A stretch of 64,000 nucleotides of DNA, taken from the NCBI RefSeq assembly GCF_008042035.1, contig NZ_RDBL01000006.1:1484807-1548806 (forward strand), in the 5' to 3' direction. Positions 1 through 12,600 of this stretch are shown here, one piece after another (within the stretch, counting starts at the first letter, position 1; every line of letters starts with the position of its first letter). Source of the stretch: Streptomyces sp. col6. Its GTDB lineage: Bacteria > Actinomycetota > Actinomycetes > Streptomycetales > Streptomycetaceae. The notes below the pieces were generated by a model. The model worked only from the letters and a program-made list of their open reading frames with translations, was not told the DNA's origin and ran no database searches. Both the position numbers and the translations under genes were made by a program.

Positions 1-2115
1 CCGCTGCTCGACCCGGGCACCCCCGCCGAACGGCTGGCCGCCGCCGAGCAGCCCGTGCGCATCGTGATGACCTGCTCCGCCAAGGCGTGCCGCACCGCGT
101 TCGTCCCGCCCCACACCGCCGCCCCGCCCCCCGACGAGGGGTACTGCCCGGTGTGCGGGGCGCCCTACTCCTACCGCCCCGAGCTGACCAAGGACGGGCC
201 GCCGCTCCAGGACCAGTACCGCATCCGCGGCCCCATCGCCCACGGCGGCCAGGGCTGGGTCTACCTGGCCGAGGACACCCATCTGGAGGACTTCGTCGCG
301 GTCAAGGGCCTCCTCAACCGCTACGCCGAACGCGGCGCCGCCCAGGCCGGTGAGGAACGCCGCAGCCTGGTCGCCATCCGGCACGAACGCATCGTCCAGA
401 TCCGGGACTTCGTCTCCACCACCAACGCCGACGGCACCGTCTCCGGCGGCTACATCGTGATGGAGGACGTCGGCGACCGGACCCTGTCCGCCCTCGTCGA
501 GTCGGTCCGGCGGGGCGCCTTCGTCCTCGACATCGAACACGTCGTCGCCTACGGCTGCCAGATCCTGGAGGCCCTGGCCCATCTGCACGGCATGGGCTTC
601 CTGTACGGGGACATGAAGCCGTCCAACGTCATCCACCACCTCGACGGCATCAAGGTCATCGACCTCGGCGGCGTCCGCAAGGCCGGCAGCACCGACCCGC
701 CGCCCGTGATCACCCCGTACTACGCCGCCCCCGAGACCGACGGCGACCGCCCCCTCACCGTCGCCCACGACGTGCACACGGTCGGCGTCACCCTCGGCGA
801 ACTGGCCCGCTGGGCGGTCGGCGACGACGTCCCGGGCCTCGGCATCAGCTCCTTCCGGCTCGTCGTGGCACGCGCCACCGCCGAGGACCCCGAAGAGCGG
901 TTCGGCACCGCCGAGGACATGGCCGGGCAGCTGCGCGGGGTGCTGCGCGAGATCCGGGCCCTGCGCGGCAAGCGCGACCAGCCCGAGCCCTCGGCCGCCT
1001 TCACGCCCTCCACCGAACTGCTCGGCGCCCGCCTGGGTTCGGTGCCGGACTACGCCCACTGGCTGGGCCGCCCGCTGCCCGGCCGCCGCGCGACACCGCC
1101 CGCGCCCGCCCTCGACCCGGGCACCCCGACGCCCACCGAGATCGCCCGCCGGCTGCCGGTCCCCAGGCCCTACCCGGGCGACCCGCAGGCAGCCCGCTTC
1201 GGGGTCAGCAGCTACGACCCCGGCCAGCCGCTCGCCCAGCCGGCCGAGGGGGAGCGGTCGGTCGAGATCTGCCTGCACAACGCCCGGCTGCTGCTCGGCC
1301 AGGAGGGCGACGAGGCCCAGGCGGCGGCCCGGGAACAGGTCGAGGCGGCGGCCGCCATCCCCGGTCCGGGACCGGTGCGGCAGTGGCGGCTCAGCTGGCA
1401 CCGGGGCCTGGTCGCGCTGCGCGCCGCGGATGTGCGCGAGGAGGAGCGGGTGGCGATGCTGGAGGCCGCCCACGGCCACTTCGCCGCCGTGCACCGGGCA
1501 CTGCCCGGCGAGTACGCGGCGAAGCTGGCGCTCGCGTACTGCGCGGAACAACTCGGCCCGCACCGGCGGCCGGTGGCCGGTCCCTCCGCGTACGAACTCT
1601 TCCGCGCGGTGCACGCCCGCAACCCCTCGCACGTCGGCGCCGCCCTGGGCCTGGCCAGGCTCGCCCTCGCCCGCGGCGACCGGGCCGCCGCGACCGGGGT
1701 CCTGGACCTGGTCCCCGACGAGTCCCGCGACCACACCGTCGCCCGCGTCGCCGCCCTGCGCATCCGGGCGGCCCGGCTGGCGGCGGGGGAGCACCCCCTC
1801 CCCGGCGAGGCGGAGATCGACGCCGCCCTGACCGCCCTGGGCCCGGTCGTCCCCGGCGACGAGGCGGCCTGGCTGCTGCGGACGGAGCTGTACGAGTGGA
1901 AGCTCGACGCCGTACGCGCACGGGCGGGCGCCCCGCCACCGCGCCGGGGCCGCCTGCGCATGGGCCTGCCGCCCCCGCCGGTCCCGGGCGAACGGGCGGT
2001 GCGCGCGGAACTGGAACAGTGCTACCGCCGGCTGGCCCGGCAGCGCCGGCACCCGGAGGAGTACGAACACCTCATCGACCTGTCCCACGCGGTACGGCCG
2101 CAGACGAGGTTCTGA
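1..2115 (+). CDS. PknG-like serine/threonine protein kinase (5' end outside window)
   Basis: The frame is already open at base 1, so the true start probably lies upstream; the first start inside is GTG at 55 and residues below are counted from it. A rubredoxin-like metal site (Cys7, Cys12, Cys31, Cys34) precedes a kinase domain at about 55-310 with a glycine loop (AHGGQG), Lys84, the catalytic loop YGDMKPSN (Asp186) and DLG at 203-205 in place of DFG. The remaining ~350 residues are alanine-rich helices resembling TPR repeats. Rubredoxin-kinase-TPR is the PknG architecture; mycobacterial PknG is a cytosolic kinase that controls glutamate metabolism. It heads a same-strand run with a vWA protein, a membrane protein and a solute-binding lipoprotein, 77 nt before the next gene. 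The kinase call is firm; what it senses is inferred from context. Confidence 0.88.
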   Translation, partial: PLLDPGTPAERLAAAEQPVRIVMTCSAKACRTAFVPPHTAAPPPDEGYCPVCGAPYSYRPELTKDGPPLQDQYRIRGPIAHGGQGWVYLAEDTHLEDFVAVKGLLNRYAERGAAQAGEERRSLVAIRHERIVQIRDFVSTTNADGTVSGGYIVMEDVGDRTLSALVESVRRGAFVLDIEHVVAYGCQILEALAHLHGMGFLYGDMKPSNVIHHLDGIKVIDLGGVRKAGSTDPPPVITPYYAAPETDGDRPLTVAHDVHTVGVTLGELARWAVGDDVPGLGISSFRLVVARATAEDPEERFGTAEDMAGQLRGVLREIRALRGKRDQPEPSAAFTPSTELLGARLGSVPDYAHWLGRPLPGRRATPPAPALDPGTPTPTEIARRLPVPRPYPGDPQAARFGVSSYDPGQPLAQPAEGERSVEICLHNARLLLGQEGDEAQAAAREQVEAAAAIPGPGPVRQWRLSWHRGLVALRAADVREEERVAMLEAAHGHFAAVHRALPGEYAAKLALAYCAEQLGPHRRPVAGPSAYELFRAVHARNPSHVGAALGLARLALARGDRAAATGVLDLVPDESRDHTVARVAALRIRAARLAAGEHPLPGEAEIDAALTALGPVVPGDEAAWLLRTELYEWKLDAVRARAGAPPPRRGRLRMGLPPPPVPGERAVRAELEQCYRRLARQRRHPEEYEHLIDLSHAVRPQTRF

Positions 2116-2192
2116 CCCGTCCCCAGCCCACCCGGCCCCGCTCGTCCCGCGTCGTCCGCAGCCACGCTGCCGTACCCCTGGAGACCCGACCC

Positions 2193-3620
2193 ATGGCCGC
2201 TTCCGCCCCGCCGCCGACCGGGCTCGCCTTCGCCGTGTCCGTCGACGTCCGGCGCGACCAGCAGCCGCACCACGACAGCCGGATCGACGCCCATGTCCGG
2301 GTCAGGGCCACCGGCACCGGGCCGCGCGACCTGCGTCCCGCCGACGAACTCGCCGTCGTCATCGCCCTGGACGTCGCCCCCGCACACCTCCGCGCCGCCG
2401 CCACCGCGCTCGCCGCCACCCTGCGCGCGCTGCCCGACGGGCTGTCCTTCGCCGTCCTCGGCGGCACGGACGGCACGGGCGACGGGAGCCCCGCCCGGTG
2501 CTACCCGCTGCGCGGGGACTGGGCGCTCGCCGGTACGGACGAGAAGCGCCGCGCCGCCTTCAGCGCGGGCCGCGTCGCGCCGACCCCCGACGACCGGCCG
2601 CGCCCCGGCTACGGGGCCTGGCTCGTCGCCGCCCGCGCGCTCTTCGCCCGACGCCCCCTGCCCGTACGCCACCTGATCCTCGTCACCGACGGCGGCGGCC
2701 ACGACCCGGCCGGCGAACCGGACCGGGAGGACACGGCGCTGACGGCCGCGATCGCCGCCTGCGAAGGGGCGTTCGGCGTGGACGTGCTGGCGCTCGGCCG
2801 GGACTGGGACCCGGCCCCGCTGCTCGCGCTCACCGAGGGCCTGCACGGCACGGCCGGCACCGCGCCCGACCGGTTCGCCCCGGCCGTCACCGGGGTGCTG
2901 CGGCGGCTGCGCCGGGTCCGCAGCCCCGAACTGCCCGTCACCGTCACCGCCCGCCCCACGGTGACCGGGGTCGCGCTCGGCGAGAGCCTGCCCCGGCAGC
3001 ACTCCCTCGTACCGGTGACCGCCCCGGATCATCCGCACCGCTACGACTTCGCCACCCACCAGTGGGAGCCGGGCGCCCGCGACTACCTGCTCAGCCTGCG
3101 GGCCGACGCGAGCACCGACCCGCTCGGGGTCCTGCTCCAGCTCGCCACGGTGTCCGTCGGCGGCGCCACCGCCCCGCTCGTGGTCCGCTGGCTGCCGCCC
3201 GGCGTCGCCGTCGGCGCGGGCGGCACCGGCGGCGGGGGCGGCACGCTCGACGCGATGAACGCCGCCACCCGGATGCGGACCGCCCTCGACCGGGGCTACG
3301 CCGCCCTGGACCCGATGAGCCGCGACGAGGCCGAGCGGCAGTTCGGCGTCGCGGTCCGCCTCGCCCACGAGATCGGCGCCGCCTGGGTCCTGGACGACGT
3401 GCGCAAGGTGGCCGACATCGTCGACGGGGCCAGGGGCCTGGTCCGGGTCGGCCCCACCGTCGACCGGGGGACCGTGCGCGAGGGCCGGCTGCACGTCGCG
3501 TCCGGCCACCTGCTCGACCTGCCCGCGCACACCGCGGGGCCGCCGGTGAAGTGCCCCGGCTGCCGCCACCTCGCCGGGCAGGGCGCCCGGTACTGCATCG
3601 CCTGCGGGAGGAGCCTGTGA
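2193..3620 (+). CDS. vWA-domain protein with C-terminal zinc ribbon
   Basis: A 475-residue cytosolic protein starting at ATG 2193; longer in-frame readings upstream lie in the shadow of the kinase gene. Residues about 50-250 look like a von Willebrand factor A fold: a hydrophobic strand ending in Asp60, then ILVTDGGGHD at 162-171. The first metal-site motif reads DVAPA rather than DxSxS, so the metal-coordinating serines are missing. A beta-rich middle is followed by helices containing a glycine-rich linker, and the last 25 residues carry Cys454, Cys457, Cys468 and Cys471, a zinc ribbon. The stop overlaps the next start by one base (TGATG), so translation is probably coupled to the membrane protein. 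A scaffold or adaptor between kinase and membrane sensor is a guess from context; no enzyme function is visible. Confidence 0.82.
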   Translation: MAASAPPPTGLAFAVSVDVRRDQQPHHDSRIDAHVRVRATGTGPRDLRPADELAVVIALDVAPAHLRAAATALAATLRALPDGLSFAVLGGTDGTGDGSPARCYPLRGDWALAGTDEKRRAAFSAGRVAPTPDDRPRPGYGAWLVAARALFARRPLPVRHLILVTDGGGHDPAGEPDREDTALTAAIAACEGAFGVDVLALGRDWDPAPLLALTEGLHGTAGTAPDRFAPAVTGVLRRLRRVRSPELPVTVTARPTVTGVALGESLPRQHSLVPVTAPDHPHRYDFATHQWEPGARDYLLSLRADASTDPLGVLLQLATVSVGGATAPLVVRWLPPGVAVGAGGTGGGGGTLDAMNAATRMRTALDRGYAALDPMSRDEAERQFGVAVRLAHEIGAAWVLDDVRKVADIVDGARGLVRVGPTVDRGTVREGRLHVASGHLLDLPAHTAGPPVKCPGCRHLAGQGARYCIACGRSL

Positions 3621-4642
3621 TGCCCCGGCCCACCCGGTGGCCGCGCGTCCCGCGGGCGCGGCGGCCGGCCGGCTCGCGCACCAGACGGCTGCTCGAACTG
3701 CACCTGGCCGTCATCGTGCTGGCCGCGCTCGTCTCGATGACCGCGCTGCTCGTCTCGTACCGCGAGGTGCAGAACGCGGCCGGCGAGATGCGCGCCCGCG
3801 CCGCCCCCGCCGTCCAGGGCGTCGCCGCCACCCAACTCGCCCTGCTGCGCGCCCACAAGGAGGCCGAGGCGTCGGTGAACAGCGGGATCGACGAGGTCGT
3901 GGGGGCCGGGGCGCGGTACGAAGCCCAGCTCTCCGCCGCCAACCAGGGCCTGTCCCGGCTCTCCGACGTCCAGATCGACGGCGAACGAGGCCGGGGCGTC
4001 CTGCAGACCGTCACCGGCGTGCTGACCTCGTACAGCGGCTCCATCACCCCCGGGACCGTCAAGTACGTCGACGACGAGCTGATGCAGCGTCAGAAGCTGA
4101 GCGAGGCCCGGCGCCAGCTCGTCCGGCCGGGCACCGGCGTCGTCCCGCGCCTGGACGTCCTCCAGGGCCACCAGATGCAGAGGATGAGCCGGATCAGCAC
4201 CCTGGGCCCCCTCCAGCTCACCGGCTGGGCCGTCGCCGAACTGGGCCTGGCCGTCGTCGCCGTGACCACGCTCAGCGCGCTGTGGCTGCTGCGCAGCCGC
4301 TGCGGCCGGAGCCTGGACCCGTGGCTGCTGGCGGCGTTCGTGGTGGCCGTCGCCCTGGCCGTCGTACCGCTCTGGGCGACCGCCGCCACCCAGGAACGGC
4401 TGGACACCGCACGCGAGCGGCTGGGGACGATCGAACAGACGGCCCGCGAGCACCATCACCTCGCCGACGACCAGCAGGAGGTCACCCGCACCTCCACCGC
4501 CCTGCACGGCCGGCTGGAGGCCGAACGCTGGCAGAGCTGGGCCTACTACGGCGCGCTCGGCGGCGGCACGCTCGTCCTCCTGCTGCCGGTCGCCGGCCTC
4601 GGCCGCAGGCTCAACGCCGACTACTACGGGAAGGCCGGATGA
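3620..4642 (+). CDS. Four-helix membrane protein, GlnX-like sensor
   Basis: 340 residues from ATG 3620, which overlaps the stop of the vWA gene. Hydrophobic segments at about 25-46, 200-224, 234-254 and 306-327 predict four transmembrane helices. Between helices 1 and 2 lies a ~150-residue helical extracytoplasmic loop, and between 3 and 4 a ~50-residue one, which is the layout of a ligand-sensing membrane protein and not of a transporter. In mycobacteria a membrane protein (GlnX) links the binding protein GlnH to PknG; this gene occupies the equivalent position between a PknG-like kinase and a binding lipoprotein. Homology to GlnX is inferred from context and topology, not from recognised sequence identity. 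Confidence 0.75.
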   Translation: MPRPTRWPRVPRARRPAGSRTRRLLELHLAVIVLAALVSMTALLVSYREVQNAAGEMRARAAPAVQGVAATQLALLRAHKEAEASVNSGIDEVVGAGARYEAQLSAANQGLSRLSDVQIDGERGRGVLQTVTGVLTSYSGSITPGTVKYVDDELMQRQKLSEARRQLVRPGTGVVPRLDVLQGHQMQRMSRISTLGPLQLTGWAVAELGLAVVAVTTLSALWLLRSRCGRSLDPWLLAAFVVAVALAVVPLWATAATQERLDTARERLGTIEQTAREHHHLADDQQEVTRTSTALHGRLEAERWQSWAYYGALGGGTLVLLLPVAGLGRRLNADYYGKAG

Positions 4643-5880
4643 GACCGCCGCCCCGGGCGCTCCTGCTCGCCCTCGTCCTGCTCCTGACCGCGTCGGGCTG
4701 CGGCCTCGCGGCGCCCGGAGGCAGTGGCACCGAACCGAAGGTGACGATTCTCGGCCCCTGGACCGACACGCAGGAACGCCGGTTCAAGGACGTCCTCGAC
4801 GGCTTCGGCATCCCGTACACCTACCAGGGCACCGCGGCCACCCGCGAGGTACTGCTCGCCGAGGTCCAGGCCGGCAACCCGCCGGACATCGCGATCCTGC
4901 CCGGCGTCGGCGAACTCGTCGAGTACGCCGCCGAGGGCCGGCTCAAGTCGCTGACCGGTCTCTACGATCCCGGCGAGTACGGCACCCCCTGGCTGCCGGA
5001 GGCGGAGGGCATGAAGAAGGACCTGTGGGTCCCGCTCAAGGTCGACCTCAAGTCCATCGTCTGGTACCGCCGGGGCGAGGCCCCGCGGCCCCGCCCGGCC
5101 CCGCTCGACGCCTGGTGCACCGCCATGGGCGACGACGGCTCGTCCGGCTGGCCCGGCAGCGACTGGATCGAGGACCTCATCCTCCAGCAGGCCGGCCCGG
5201 TGCAGTACGCGCGCTGGGCGACCGGCCACCTGGACTGGACGGCCGGCCACGTCGTCACCGCCTGGACCACCTGGGCGGGCCTGCTCGCCCAGGGCTCGCG
5301 CACCCGGCGCCAGACGATCCTGGAGGGCGACCACCGGGGCCGGCCCGGCGGCCACGGGCTGCTCTTCGGCGGCGGCTGCGCCCTGGAGCACCAGGGCTCC
5401 TTCGCCCGCTCCTTCTACGGGGACCACCGGGACCGGGCCGCCCTCACCGACTCGGCGCCGTTGCTGCCCGGGGGCCCGTACACCGTGAAGGCCCACGAGG
5501 TCTCGGCCGACTTCGCCGCGCTCTTCGGGGACGGCGACCGGGCGCGTACGCTGATCCGGCGGCTCACGTCCGAGAAGGCCCAGGAGGTGTGGGGCCGCAC
5601 GGGCGGGGTGTTCTCGGCCGACTCCGCGGTCCCGGCCCGGACGGGCGAGGCCGACCGGGCCATCGGCGGCCGCCTCACGGACCAGCGGGTGCCGCTCTGC
5701 CTGGACGCGTCGGACGTCATGCCGGCGGCGGTGCGGGACGCGTTCTACGAGGCGGTGCTGCTGACCGTGGCGCACCCGGACGAGCCGGTGCTCCCGCGCC
5801 TGGAGGACATCCAGAAGGTGCAGGACGCCCAGCCCGACACCGTCCGCCGGCTCAACGGCGTGTGCGGGAGGCCACAGTGA
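4639..5880 (+). CDS. Extracellular solute-binding lipoprotein
   Basis: 413 residues starting at ATG 4639 and overlapping the preceding stop by 4 nt (ATGA). A lipoprotein signal peptide with hydrophobic core 7-17 and lipobox TASGC places the lipidated cysteine at 21, so the protein is anchored outside the membrane. The mature part (ILGPWTDTQERRFKDVL near its start, later AGNPPDIAILPG) resembles family 1 (sugar-type) ABC solute-binding proteins. No permease or ATPase gene is adjacent, which argues that it feeds a ligand signal to the neighbouring membrane protein and kinase instead of serving import. The ligand cannot be told from the sequence. Unlike mycobacterial GlnH it does not look like an amino-acid (family 3) binding protein. 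Confidence 0.82.
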   Translation: MRPPPRALLLALVLLLTASGCGLAAPGGSGTEPKVTILGPWTDTQERRFKDVLDGFGIPYTYQGTAATREVLLAEVQAGNPPDIAILPGVGELVEYAAEGRLKSLTGLYDPGEYGTPWLPEAEGMKKDLWVPLKVDLKSIVWYRRGEAPRPRPAPLDAWCTAMGDDGSSGWPGSDWIEDLILQQAGPVQYARWATGHLDWTAGHVVTAWTTWAGLLAQGSRTRRQTILEGDHRGRPGGHGLLFGGGCALEHQGSFARSFYGDHRDRAALTDSAPLLPGGPYTVKAHEVSADFAALFGDGDRARTLIRRLTSEKAQEVWGRTGGVFSADSAVPARTGEADRAIGGRLTDQRVPLCLDASDVMPAAVRDAFYEAVLLTVAHPDEPVLPRLEDIQKVQDAQPDTVRRLNGVCGRPQ

Positions 5881-5904: not shown

Positions 5905-6021
5905 AAGGCCGGTACCGGCTGGTACTTCGCCTGCATGGAGCGGGGTTTCTGTCAGGCTCCACCAGTAATCCGGGCAGGAGACTGTACGGAGTCGACGGCA
6001 GGGTTTTCTTGGCGGGGTTCG

Positions 6022-6033: not shown

Positions 6034-7617
6034 ATGACCGTTGTGGACGAAACCCAGGGCGAGCCGAGCGACACCCGCGGCCGTGTGGCCGAACTGCTGG
6101 CGCTGCGCGAGCAGGCCCGGCGCGGACCCAGTGACCGGGCGACCGAGGCGCAGCACGCCAAGGGCAAGCTGACCGCCCGCGAGCGCATCGAGCTGCTCCT
6201 GGACCCGGATTCGTTCCACGAGGTCGAACAGCTGCGCCGGCACCGGGCGACGGGTTTCGGTCTGGAGGCGAAGAAGCCGTACACGGACGGTGTGATCACC
6301 GGCTGGGGCACGGTCGAGGGCCGGACGGTCTTCGTGTACGCGCACGACTTCCGGATCTTCGGCGGGGCGCTGGGTGAGGCCCATGCGACGAAGATCCACA
6401 AGATCATGGACATGGCCATCTCGGCCGGTGCGCCGCTGGTGTCGCTAAACGACGGCGCGGGCGCCCGTATCCAGGAGGGTGTCTCGGCGCTCGCGGGTTA
6501 CGGCGGCATCTTCCAGCGCAACACCCGCGCCTCCGGTGTCATCCCGCAGATCAGCGTGATGCTCGGCCCGTGCGCGGGCGGCGCGGCCTACAGCCCCGCC
6601 CTCACCGACTTCGTGTTCATGGTCCGCGAGACCTCCCAGATGTTCATCACCGGTCCGGACGTCGTGAAGGCGGTCACAGGCGAGGAGATCACCCAGAACG
6701 GCCTGGGCGGCGCGGACGTCCACGCCGAGACCTCGGGCGTCGCGCACTTCGCGTACGACGACGAGGAGACCTGCATCGCCGAGGTCCGCTACCTCATCGG
6801 GATGCTGCCCTCCAACAACCGGGAGAACCCGCCCACCGCGGAGAGCGACGACCCGGCCGACCGGCGCGGCGAGGCCCTGCTGGACCTGGTGCCCGCCGAC
6901 GGCAACCGCCCATACGACATGCACAAGGTCATCGAGGAGCTCGTCGACGACGGCGACTACCTGGAAGTCCACGAACGCTGGGCCCGCAACATCATCTGCG
7001 CGCTGGCCCGCATGGACGGCCAGGTCGTCGGCATCGTGGCCAACCAGCCGCAGGCCCTGGCCGGGGTGCTGGACATCGAGGCCTCCGAGAAGGCCGCGCG
7101 ATTCGTCCAGATGTGTGACGCCTTCAACATTCCCATCATCACTCTTCTGGACGTACCCGGCTTCCTGCCCGGCGTGGATCAGGAGCACGGTGGGATCATC
7201 CGGCACGGCGCGAAGCTGCTCTACGCGTACTGCAACGCGACGGTGCCGAGGATCTCGCTGATCCTGCGCAAGGCCTACGGCGGCGCCTACATCGTCATGG
7301 ACAGCCAGTCCATCGGTGCGGACCTCACCTACGCCTGGCCCACCAACGAGATCGCGGTCATGGGCGCGGAAGGTGCCGCCAACGTCATCTTCCGCCGGCA
7401 GATCGCGGAGGCCGAGGACCCCGAGGCCATGCGGACCCGCATGGTCAAGGAGTACAAGACCGAGCTGATGCACCCCTACTACGCCGCCGAGCGCGGTCTG
7501 GTCGACGACGTCATCGACCCGGCCGAGACCCGCGAGGTCCTGATCGCCTCGCTCGCCATGCTCCGCTCCAAGCACGCCGACCTGCCGGCCCGCAAGCACG
7601 GCAACCCCCCGCAGTAG
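6034..7617 (+). CDS. accB: Acyl-CoA carboxylase beta subunit (carboxyltransferase)
   Basis: 527 residues, the normal length for actinobacterial acyl-CoA carboxylase beta subunits. It transfers carboxyl from biotin on the AccA alpha subunit to acetyl- or propionyl-CoA, giving malonyl- or methylmalonyl-CoA for fatty acids and polyketides. The oxyanion-hole motif GPCAGGAAYSPA lies near 178 and a second glycine-rich motif, GGAYIVMDS, near 416. The residue that decides acyl-CoA choice in S. coelicolor (Asp422 in PccB, Ile420 in AccB) is Ile420 here, so AccB is the better name than PccB. The epsilon subunit gene follows after 15 nt. The symbol should not be confused with the biotin carrier AccB of other bacteria. 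Confidence 0.93.
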   Translation: MTVVDETQGEPSDTRGRVAELLALREQARRGPSDRATEAQHAKGKLTARERIELLLDPDSFHEVEQLRRHRATGFGLEAKKPYTDGVITGWGTVEGRTVFVYAHDFRIFGGALGEAHATKIHKIMDMAISAGAPLVSLNDGAGARIQEGVSALAGYGGIFQRNTRASGVIPQISVMLGPCAGGAAYSPALTDFVFMVRETSQMFITGPDVVKAVTGEEITQNGLGGADVHAETSGVAHFAYDDEETCIAEVRYLIGMLPSNNRENPPTAESDDPADRRGEALLDLVPADGNRPYDMHKVIEELVDDGDYLEVHERWARNIICALARMDGQVVGIVANQPQALAGVLDIEASEKAARFVQMCDAFNIPIITLLDVPGFLPGVDQEHGGIIRHGAKLLYAYCNATVPRISLILRKAYGGAYIVMDSQSIGADLTYAWPTNEIAVMGAEGAANVIFRRQIAEAEDPEAMRTRMVKEYKTELMHPYYAAERGLVDDVIDPAETREVLIASLAMLRSKHADLPARKHGNPPQ

Positions 7618-9692: not shown

Positions 9693-12600
9693 CTAACGCT
9701 CCTGGTTGTAGGTATTACTTGTGTCCGAACCCGCGTTGCGTCCCCTGAGGACACCGCGCCGCAGGTTGCTCAGCCTGCCACGCACGTCCTCCGGGGCGCG
9801 GGAGACCTGGGGGCCGCCCTGCTGGGTCTGTTCGGCGGTGCCCTCGACCAGGTTGGCCTTGGGCACGCGCCGGGGAAGACCGGAGGGGGTTATCCCGCCC
9901 GCCTTCGGCTCCCGGAGCTTCTCGGCCCGCTCCCAGCGCTCGTCGTTGGCCGAGCGCCAGTCGTCGGTGCCTTCGTCCCCGTTGTTTCCGGAGTCTTTGG
10001 CGTTCCCGTCGGGGGCCTGCTGCGCCGGGGTCGGCCGCTGCGGCAGTTCGTGCTGCTGCGGGCGCTCCTGCGCGGCGTCGGGCCGGCTGTTCCCGCGGCC
10101 CGTGGGCTGCCAGTGCTGCTGGCCGCCCCGGCGCGGGAGACCGGCTTCGGTCAGGTCGTGGCCGGCGTTCGGGACGGGGCCCGAACGGTCGAAGCCTACG
10201 CGCTCCTGCGGCTCGGCGGGAGCGCTCACGGCAGATTCCGGTTCCGGCTGCGCGACCGGCTCGAAGCCACCCTGGTACGCGCTCTGATCTGCCCACTCTC
10301 CCTGCTGGGGCGGGACGCCGTACTGCGCGTCGTAGCCCTGCTGCGGCGCCTCGGGGGCCGCGTACGCAGCCTCCGGATAGCCGCCCTGGGCGCCGTCGTA
10401 GCCGGGCTGCCCGTCGAAACCGGCGCCGGTGGCGTACGGGTCGTAGCCGCCCTCGTACCGGTTCGCGGCGTAGCCGTCCTGACCGTTTCCGGCGAACGCG
10501 TCCTGGCCGCTTCCGGCATAGGCGCCCTGGCCGTTCCCGGCGTACCCGTCCTGCCCGTACGCGCCCTCGGCGTAGGCCTGCTCAGGCTGTCCCTGCTCCG
10601 GCTGCTCCTGCTGCGGGAACTGCTGGCGCTCGCCGCCCGCCTGGGCCTCCAGCGCCGCGCGGCGCTCCTCGCGCATCAGCGAGCGGCCCACCGGGTCGAG
10701 CTGGGCGGAGTCCGCGGACGGCTCCTCGTAGCGCGAGTCGTCGAAGCCGAGTTCGGCCGCGGTACGCAGCTGCGGCTGGTGCGGCTGGGCGGCGAAGGCC
10801 TGCTGCTGCGGGATGATCGAGGAGACGGTGAAGTCGTCCTGCTCCGGGGCCTCGCCGCCGCCACCGTGGGTGATCGCGTCCGGGAGCATGACCAGCGAGG
10901 TTGTGCCGGCCTGCTCGCCCGAGGGGCGCAGCTGGACCCGGATGCCGTGCCGGTCGGAGAGCCGGCCGACCACGAACAGGCCCATGCGCTGCGAGACCGC
11001 GGCGTCCACCGTCGGCGGGTTGGCCAGCTTGTGGTTGATGTCGGCGAAGTCCTCGGCGGTGAGGCCGATGCCCTTGTCGTGGATCTCGATCATCACGCGG
11101 CCGTCGGGCAGCCGGGTCGCGGTGACGCGCACCTTGGTCTGCGGCGAGGAGAACGTCGTGGCGTTCTCCAGCAGCTCGGCCAGCAGGTGCACGAGGTCGG
11201 TGACGGACTGGCCGTGGATCTCGGTCTCCGGGACGCCGGAGAGCTCGATGCGCTCGTACGACTCCACCTCGGAGGAGGCGGCGCGCAACACGTCCACCAG
11301 CGGCACCGGCTGGTTCCAGCGGCGGCCGGGCTCCTCGCCGGCGAGGACGAGGAGGTTCTCGCCGTTGCGCCGCATACGGGTCGCCAGGTGGTCCAGCCGG
11401 AACAGGCTCTCCAGCTGGTCCGGGTCGGCCTCGTTGTTCTCCAGGTCGGTGATCAGGGTCAGCTGGCCCTCGATGAGCGACTGGTTGCGGCGCGAGAGGT
11501 TGGTGAAGATCGCGTTGACGTTGCCCCGGAGCATGGCCTGCTCGGCCGCGAGCCGCACCGCCTCCTGGTGGACCTGGTCGAAGGCGCGGGCGACCTCGCC
11601 GATCTCGTCCTGGGAGGTGATCGGGATGGGCTGGACGCGGGTGTCGACGCGGCCGGGGTCGGTGCGCGAGAGCTGGTCGACCAGCGAGGGCAGCCGCTGC
11701 TCGGCGATGGAGAAGGCGGCGGTGCGCAGCCGGCGCATCGAGCGGCTCATCTGGCGGGCCATGAGCCCGGCCAGGATGAACGCGGCCAGCAGAGCGACGA
11801 TCACGATCGTGGCGTTGACGATGGCGTCGGTGCGGGCGTCGGACGAGATCTCCGCTGCCTCGGTCACGGCCTTGTCGACGAGCTCGTCCTCGACCGTGGT
11901 GTAGCCGTCGAACTTGGCGGTCGCGGCGGCCATCCAGGTGTCGGGGGTGATCCCCTTCGCCTTCAGCTGGGCGGGGCTCCGGCCGAGGCCGATCTCCTGC
12001 GCCATGCCGTCGTAGACCGAGCCGTCGATGGTGGGCGGCGCCACGAACGGCACCCCGGCCGCGTCGGCCTTCTCCTTGGCCGCCTTCAGCTCGGCGGCGC
12101 CGGCGGTGGCCTTGGCGGTCATCACCTTCCGCAGCCGGGCCGCGTCGGCCTCCGTACCGCCGGAGGTGAACTCACCGAGGGCGATCTGCTCCAGGTAGTT
12201 GTACGAGCCGAAGGCCTTGACCTGGTCGTTGAACTTGCCGTCCTCCTTGCTGGGACGGACCAGGAGGTGCATGCCGATCGAGCGCTGAAGCGATTCTGCA
12301 GCCTTGGCCAGCTCGATCGCGTAGACGGTACGGCCGTAGCTGGTGATGTTGCCGGTGCCGAGGCCCAGTTCGTTGCAGAACTCCATCAGGGAGTGCTGGA
12401 CCTGGACGTAGCCCTCCTCGGTCTTCACCGGGTCCATGGCCGCGGTGTAGGCCGCCTTGCGCAGCTGCGGGAGCTTGGGCTCCTCCAGCTTGAACAGCTT
12501 GAGGCGGCGCTGGAGGCCCTGCTTGGCCGGCATGTCCTTGACGGCCTGGTCAAACTTCTCCGCGGCCGCGTCGGTGGTGGCCCGGGTCTGCGTGACGACC

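Follow-up and report, generated by a model that had tools for sequence, protein, structure and literature searches.

In mycobacteria and corynebacteria, the kinase PknG, the membrane protein GlnX and the solute-binding protein (SBP) GlnH link amino-acid sensing to an output through GarA or OdhI and to control of 2-oxoglutarate dehydrogenase (PMC8546545, PMC9769921, PMC6069109). Docking of GlnH onto GlnX is a proposed model for signalling to PknG (PMC6069109, PMC8546545); one helix of C. glutamicum GlnX is described as 67 residues long and as reaching from the membrane into the outer bundle (PMC9769921), and corynebacterial PknG is described as having no rubredoxin domain (PMC8546545). Kinases linked or fused to SBPs have also been reported, namely SGR_4432, SCO1468 and MSMEG_1200 (PMC6069109) as well as an S. 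coelicolor kinase with a glutamate/glutamine SBP domain (PMC1262709). Work on trypsin-bearing conflict systems of multicellular bacteria, from which the Trypco domains were named, also names a theme of kinase, PP2C phosphatase and stand-alone vWA protein (Kaur et al. 2020, PMC7159879). Here, we describe a relative of the PknG pathway at the start of a 64,000-nucleotide stretch of Streptomyces sp. col6 DNA (contig NZ_RDBL01000006.1, positions 1,484,807 to 1,548,806 of the forward strand; referred to as the window), which holds four genes of a cassette in which an extracellular sugar-like ligand probably acts, through a GlnX-like protein, on a PknG-type kinase that would control intracellular proteolysis.

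The four genes are all on the plus strand, and their open reading frames bear out the order of kinase, vWA protein, membrane protein and lipoprotein given in an initial annotation of the window. The gene for a PknG-type Ser/Thr kinase (1..2115), the 5' end of which is missing within an assembly gap, covers a rubredoxin-like four-cysteine stretch (approximately nucleotides 73-156), a kinase domain (approximately 229-960) and a PknG TPR domain (approximately 1237-2106). It is followed by genes for a vWA protein with a zinc-ribbon-like C-terminal end of the form CxxC...CxxC (2193..3620), for a GlnX-like membrane protein in which three membrane segments are clear and the fourth is weaker (3620..4642) and for a lipoprotein of the sugar type (SBP family 1; 4639..5880), which by eye has the lipobox TASGC and which has no linked ATP-binding cassette (ABC) permeases. 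The overlaps that had been reported among the last three genes are present as TGATG at 3618..3622, where an in-frame GTG also lies 3 bases earlier, and as ATGA at 4639..4642. Pfam matches of the window proteins over the cut-off are PknG_TPR (4.7e-34), Pkinase (1.9e-24) and VWA_3 (9.4e-11); PknG_rubred (0.0032), Zn_Ribbon_1 (0.037) and SBP_bac_1 (0.0017) fall below their curated cut-offs, with the CxxC pairs visible in the sequence.

Base 1 of the window lies inside the kinase gene, directly after a scaffold gap of 100 N (positions 10708-10807 of the upstream region, L005), and in close relatives the kinase gene is preceded by one for a trypsin-like protease. In the present genome, the protease gene lies at the end of a 5.6-kb contig, C79. 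The alignment of C79 to one relative (L067) stops at position 7213, 22 bases before C79 itself ends; base 1 of the window aligns to position 7389 of the same relative. Because the alignments to L067 and to two further relatives, L068 and L069, leave an estimated ~150, ~170 and ~240 bases missing, respectively, C79 fits the gap before base 1 and appears to be hidden by the N run. Judged from these alignments, the window holds four genes of a five-gene cassette, of which the protease is the first. The scaffold upstream of the gap departs from the gene order of the relatives, and distances across the gap are thus unreliable.

Conservation of the cassette was counted in two sets of loci that overlap in species and are not independent, namely the best 80 of at least 531 loci from a scan of the collection (collection set) and 56 inspected loci out of 82 SBP places outside the present genome (SBP-place set); loci with less than 9 kb upstream (16 of the 80 and 6 of the 56) were dropped for counts of architecture, which left 64 and 50 loci, respectively. 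The trio of kinase, membrane protein and SBP is complete in 63/64 collection and 49/50 SBP-place loci, and all five genes are present in 51/64 and 37/50; the order in the relatives is protease, kinase, vWA, membrane protein, SBP. In ten of the 64 and seven of the 50 loci, the trio is present but both protease and vWA are missing, and a protease-kinase fusion without vWA was seen in one collection and four SBP-place loci. Single oddities are an SBP alone (L186), a locus without vWA (L242), one in which no kinase or protease was seen (L097) and a degenerate cassette (L087). Translational coupling recurs along the cassette, the junctions of which mostly overlap or are at most 100 nt apart; a 4-nt overlap joins vWA and membrane-protein genes in 45 of 61 collection and 34 of 44 SBP-place loci, and membrane-protein and SBP genes in 69/78 and 47/55 (with fusions in a further 6 and 2), with each downstream start set at the first possible codon, from 30 nt upstream of the stop onwards, which biases the counts towards overlaps.

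Within the genus, the membrane protein gave 68 matches in 67 of 199 genomes, and all 68 have an SBP homologue within 2 kb on the 3' side and on the same strand, an adjacency that is more than chance; the SBP itself was found, at a chosen cut of E values up to 3e-34, in 82 of the 199. Holders outside Streptomyces in the collection set are Actinacidiphila (three loci) and Streptosporangium saharense. The initial annotation had held that its proposed signalling cassette would fall if the genes were not kept together in other streptomycetes; the neighbourhood survey finds them conserved as a unit. Over the class, the membrane-protein profile matched 33 of 296 genomes, and 17 regions were fetched from 16 of these. 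Six regions carry a cassette-type SBP, namely two with all five genes (L293 and L309), one with kinase, vWA, membrane protein and SBP in which the protease profile gave no more than a 36-bit scrap (L296), two with only membrane protein and SBP (L299 and L300) and one interrupted by a contig end (L294); GlnX/GlnH loci account for the remaining 11, with a different gene order in two. Since the SBP profile matched 66 of 296 genomes over the phylum in a mixture with ordinary transport SBPs, it was not used as a phylum marker.

Gene fusions connect the same partners that the gene order places side by side. Membrane protein and SBP share one frame in eight loci (L085, L086, L188, L220, L224, L225, L226 and L239), protease and kinase in five (L106, L118, L119, L120 and L229) and vWA and membrane protein in one (L223). 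Pfam finds trypsin, kinase and PknG TPR domains on a single chain in L106, L118 and L119, and the trypsin match in L229 lies just below the cut-off. By hydropathy, all five of the membrane-protein/SBP fusions scanned have a membrane segment before the SBP, for a total of five segments; this arrangement would put the fused SBP outside, which is the expected place of the unfused lipoprotein. A structure model of the L085 fusion (predicted local distance difference test score [pLDDT] 87, predicted template modelling score 0.85) has a helical first domain and a predicted first helix of 68 residues, much as described for the 67-residue helix of GlnX (PMC9769921); fold matches of this model span residues 370-756 only, and no interface is claimed from it. 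These natural fusions offer single-chain handles on the wiring between membrane protein and SBP and between protease and kinase.

We place the kinase in the PknG type by sequence, since its matches to M. tuberculosis PknG (2pzi, E 1.2e-63) and to a second full-length PknG-type entry (7mxb, 5.8e-42), which we take to be corynebacterial PknG, lie far above the best non-PknG kinase in the PDB (6.2e-17), and its PknG TPR domain (PF16918) scores 118 bits vs. a cut-off of 27. The catalytic Lys, Glu, Asp, Asn and Asp are kept in the alignment in 119 of 123 cassette kinases, the remaining four being gapped there, and the kinase is thus predicted to be catalytically intact. Four rubredoxin-like cysteines are present in the window kinase, each of them found in 85-91 of the 123 loci, with a PknG_rubred score of 17.8 vs. 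a cut-off of 28.5 bits.

Two PknG-TPR kinases were found in the genome, that of the cassette and that of a canonical cluster on contig C5 (L006), which reads GlnX, GlnH, A, PknG, PP2C, vWA, FHA, where A is a helical protein. GlnX is over its family cut-off in 193 of the 199 genomes of the genus, and the canonical order was present in 20/20 clusters inspected (L006 plus 19 picked, non-randomly, among the GlnX matches listed); in three of the clusters, a single gene on the opposite strand is called within. The kinases of cassette and canonical cluster match by profile comparison at 100% (E 5e-127), the vWA family and the canonical vWA are homologous over their full length (hhalign 100%, E 3.3e-92), and the C-terminus of the protease protein matches the C-terminus of A (96.4%, E 1e-9 over 91 columns, profile-profile); in L082, L084 and L087 (the degenerate case) cassette and canonical cluster stand side by side. 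As judged from these homologies, the cassette is a rebuilt paralogue of its own genome's canonical cluster, with the sensor swapped and a protease module replacing most of A. The initial annotation had taken the vWA protein as added to the mycobacterial scheme, a claim that does not hold, because the canonical cluster of the same genome already carries vWA; vWA, PP2C and FHA are present in all 20 clusters inspected, which rules out the vWA protein as an addition peculiar to this locus. As a separate observation, one cassette locus (L086) also has, at 181-3306 and a few kb from the cassette, a series of genes that resemble those for a vWA protein, a phosphatase and a kinase and that by eye form a separate vWA-PP2C-kinase triad.

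The vWA protein of the window has a degenerate metal-ion-dependent adhesion site (MIDAS), with LDVAPAHL in place of the VDCSGSM of the canonical paralogue (window 2352-2855). In the family alignment of 46 rows, this motif is lost in the wider clade of the window (18 rows) and kept in 27 rows, four of them canonical, with one further row of another kind; it is kept in most other cassettes and in 20/20 canonical vWAs. Because of this loss, a metal-dependent grip by the vWA protein appears unlikely in the wider clade of the window.

The membrane protein had been annotated as having four membrane segments; three of these are clear by hydropathy, and the fourth rests on homologues, since hydropathy does not call it in the window protein. 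Approximately 150 residues, taken as outside, lie between segments 1 and 2, and the second outer segment of the window protein (P0003) has approximately 50 residues. The NCBIfam GlnX model (NF058618) matches the window protein at E 1.1e-6 and 28.1 bits, vs. a curated cut-off of 250, and the family profile matches GlnX at 96.8% (E 3e-10 over 190 columns, profile-profile), with 15 control profiles all below 1% (up to 0.96%). On sequence, therefore, we regard the membrane protein as a relative of GlnX, not as a member by the NF058618 standard. Searches of the PDB with the membrane-protein profile gave nothing useful, the best match (0.026) being a designed protein.

The protease of the present genome matches Pfam Trypsin_2 (1.3e-12) and, by eye, has no obvious signal peptide, its N-terminus leading into the trypsin domain. 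Its structure model (pLDDT 84) has an S1 protease fold and best matches DegS/HtrA-type proteases (Z 20.8, root-mean-square deviation [rmsd] 2.6, 169 aligned), with fold matches that span residues 3-205 only. The His-Asp-Ser triad is complete in 94 of 97 aligned loci; L088 and L173 are incomplete in that region, and L179 has Gly in place of the catalytic Ser. By predicted fold and triad, the protein is thus classed as a trypsin-like (S1) peptidase. A by-eye suspicion that its C-terminal alpha/beta part is a degenerate P-loop NTPase was not established; the one P-loop match to this part, NPHP3_N at 0.15 in a single protease protein, is below the threshold. The genome also has a second trypsin-like fusion gene (L130 8043-12494, on G000:C5), the 1483-aa product of which is 35% identical to a cassette protease over residues 5-211 of the 440-residue query.

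The lipoprotein was initially described as looking like a sugar-type, not an amino-acid-type, binding protein, and both parts of this description stand. Its family profile matches sugar receptors in the PDB (best 1.7e-6), and the SBP part of the L085 fusion model best matches AcbH (Z 31.5, rmsd 2.8, 344 aligned), followed within approximately 2 Z units by glucose/galactose and xylobiose receptors; a fused homologue matches SBP_bac_1 at 5.2e-9, and the window SBP alone scores 18.9 bits, under the cut-off. No match of the window SBP to SBP_bac_3, the GlnH-type Pfam family, was found, and profile comparison with GlnH gave 0.4%. By sequence and modelled fold, the lipoprotein is thus classed as a family-1 sugar-type SBP. 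The initial annotation had also reported that an ABC permease was missing, and had named a permease pair linked to the lipoprotein elsewhere as evidence that would speak against it. With a home-made permease profile that recovers the permeases standing beside the SBP relatives of approximately 31-32% identity (four of four fetched, L122-L125), no co-directional importer permease was found within 8 kb of the SBP in 137 cassette loci, which rules against an importer lipoprotein with a linked permease. The nearest permeases (L118 and L223) are on the strand opposite to the SBP, co-directional matches occur only beyond 8 kb (L104, L107 and L108), and EAA-motif matches in L079, L184 and L187, which are antisense to the SBP at less than 1 kb in long overlapping frames, look like chance.

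Upstream of the protease, the closest relatives of the window carry a gene for a GH101 endo-alpha-N-acetylgalactosaminidase (1.5e-121); on C79 this gene lies on the minus strand at L129 (G000:C79) 1443-5192, 75 bp upstream of the protease gene. Across the two overlapping sets, 13 more loci have a GH101 gene upstream and in the same orientation, at a distance of 1.7-2.5 kb in L069, L072, L170 and L171. This placement hints at a galactosyl ligand for the SBP, and no more. Downstream of the SBP gene, a weak terminator-like stem (5930..5944, plus strand) is not above chance, with one found vs. a mean of 0.4 in shuffled sequences. A carboxyltransferase gene follows (6034-7617) and is a recurrent neighbour in the relatives of the window; by eye it is acyl-CoA carboxylase beta-like and falls into one cluster with another at L005 1303-2898. 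Upstream of the gap, a short open reading frame (L005 9904-10014) encodes a 36-residue acidic peptide (VAAKSQQTQITETEP...), a possible small-peptide product.

Taken as a relay, the cassette would work from the outside in. The lipid-anchored SBP would catch an extracellular sugar-like ligand and, once loaded, dock onto the outer helical bundle of the GlnX-like protein, whose long continuous helices would carry the signal across the membrane to the TPR domain of the cytoplasmic kinase; we suggest this route because the same has been proposed for GlnH, GlnX and PknG (PMC6069109, PMC8546545). The kinase, with the vWA protein as a scaffold, may then switch on or target the trypsin-like protease and so bring about intracellular proteolysis of a presumed substrate, a step to which the shared operon, the fusions and the preserved triads point. 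A distinct pathway from extracellular ligand to kinase had been suggested in the initial annotation; its conserved unit stands, and the protease, Trypco partners and fusions, which it missed, shift the likely output.

Several observations weigh against such a relay. Protease and vWA are both absent from the 10/64 and 7/50 loci of kinase, membrane protein and SBP described above, and proteolysis therefore cannot be the sole output; the existence of these loci suggests that neither protease nor vWA is required for the input half to work. In another actinobacterial family, membrane-protein/SBP pairs stand without an adjacent kinase, protease or vWA (L299 and L300), and the protease of L179 has Gly at the catalytic Ser position. 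The membrane protein falls far short of the GlnX cut-off (28 vs. 250 bits), and a profile of 16 membrane proteins from the wider clade of the window matches GlnX at only 6.4% (E 0.0057), so that, for the GlnX link, the wider family and the NCBIfam match carry most of the weight. A tree of 56 kinase rows does not support a single origin for all cassettes: 30 cassette rows form one group, with a separate long-branched group of 6, the L296 kinase falls among canonical kinases, and at least two label changes are needed, with deep forks that are weak. Trypco2, which usually accompanies such proteases, did not turn up next to the cassette in the closest relatives of the window and is unlinked to it in the present genome, where protease and kinase are themselves joined across an unclosed gap through comparison with relatives only.

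The near-invariance of kinase, membrane protein and SBP (63/64 and 49/50), around which protease and vWA can be missing, favours another account, in which the cassette is a counterpart of the PknG pathway that responds to sugar and adjusts central metabolism, with the kinase acting on the GarA/OdhI-type FHA protein of the cell or on further metabolic targets and with the protease as an accessory or shut-off factor. The canonical paralogue does end with an FHA gene, and the pathway controls 2-oxoglutarate dehydrogenase in mycobacteria and corynebacteria (PMC8546545, PMC9769921, PMC6069109); however, no FHA or PP2C gene was found in the cassette order, and a triad kept in 94/97 loci together with a kinase fusion in five argues for a central role of the protease where it is present, so we consider this account possible but rather unlikely. 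We also think it unlikely that the cassette is a conflict device (defence or self/non-self) in which the SBP senses a foreign glycan or wall fragment and unleashes the cytoplasmic protease, a mode of action that has been put forward for trypsin-Trypco conflict systems, even though Trypco2 or Trypco1 lies near protease or SBP in 29/64 collection and 27/50 SBP-place loci, these domains were named from trypsin-bearing conflict systems (Kaur et al. 2020, PMC7159879) and presence in the genus is patchy (SBP 82/199 and membrane protein 67/199, vs. GlnX in 195/199). No MoxR or VMAP Pfam match was seen among the five genes, the neighbourhoods not having been searched for MoxR, and the sole STAND-like hint is the sub-threshold NPHP3_N P-loop match (0.15) in one protease protein. 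With PADLOC at E 0.01, the vWA protein, membrane protein, SBP, Trypco proteins and one protease had no match; the kinase matched generic kinase domains, and the second protease gave a weak RT-protease match. No Trypco gene was found beside the cassette in the closest relatives of the window. That an orphan lipoprotein of a sugar importer sits beside kinase genes by chance and serves a remote permease is highly improbable; it shares its fold with ABC sugar receptors and has relatives beside importer permeases, but the survey of 137 loci found no co-directional permease within 8 kb, and its gene is fused to that of the membrane protein in eight loci and overlaps it by 4 nt in most others.

If the relay from ligand to proteolysis is correct, the cassette would act as an outside-in switch for proteolysis that might serve controlled lysis, development or defence, and that arose by exchange of the sensor and output modules of the amino-acid PknG pathway. 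Each half is already known, the one as PknG signalling with a binding protein and the other as trypsin with Trypco in conflict systems; we suggest only tentatively that a receptor-kinase-protease relay, in which an SBP is physically part of a GlnX-like receptor and a PknG-type kinase gates a cytoplasmic protease, may be new to bacteria. Among titles and abstract openings of open-licence PMC articles, none links PknG to a trypsin-like protease or to a sugar-type SBP, and one secretome paper (PMC10896948) contains the words PknG, trypsin-like and solute-binding. PknG signalling is modular in these comparisons, in that sensor and helper are exchanged and kinase, receptor and vWA retained, and a protease as output would join PknG nutrient sensing with the trypsin/Trypco conflict systems.

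Compared with PknG-GlnX-GlnH of mycobacteria and corynebacteria, the cassette shares a PknG-type kinase with TPR domain and (mostly) rubredoxin-like cysteines, a GlnX-like protein and a lipoprotein in a permease-free operon, and the parallel to that system drawn in the initial annotation is upheld for the kinase, the GlnX-related membrane protein and the SBP without permease, not for the vWA protein as an addition. It differs in its SBP, which is of the sugar type and not of SBP_bac_3, in the much shorter second outer domain of the membrane protein, in the presence of vWA and trypsin-like protease genes in the operon and in that an FHA target is unlinked. With the canonical Streptomyces cluster, it has in common homologous kinase and vWA proteins, part of GlnX and, within the protease protein, the C-terminal 91 residues of A; by contrast, the genes are reordered, PP2C and FHA are absent, the SBP is unrelated to GlnH and the N-terminal part of A is replaced by the protease. 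The pairing of kinase and SBP is likewise found in SGR_4432, SCO1468, MSMEG_1200 and the S. coelicolor fusion, for which vWA, GlnX-like and protease partners are not named in the available portions of the respective papers. Finally, the cassette resembles the trypsin/Trypco conflict systems (Kaur et al. 2020, PMC7159879) in its trypsin-like peptidase with no obvious signal peptide, its vWA protein and, in some loci, its Trypco1 or Trypco2 neighbours; it differs from them in having no MoxR/VMAP core among its five genes, a catalytically intact PknG-type kinase and an input made up of an extracellular SBP and a GlnX-like protein.

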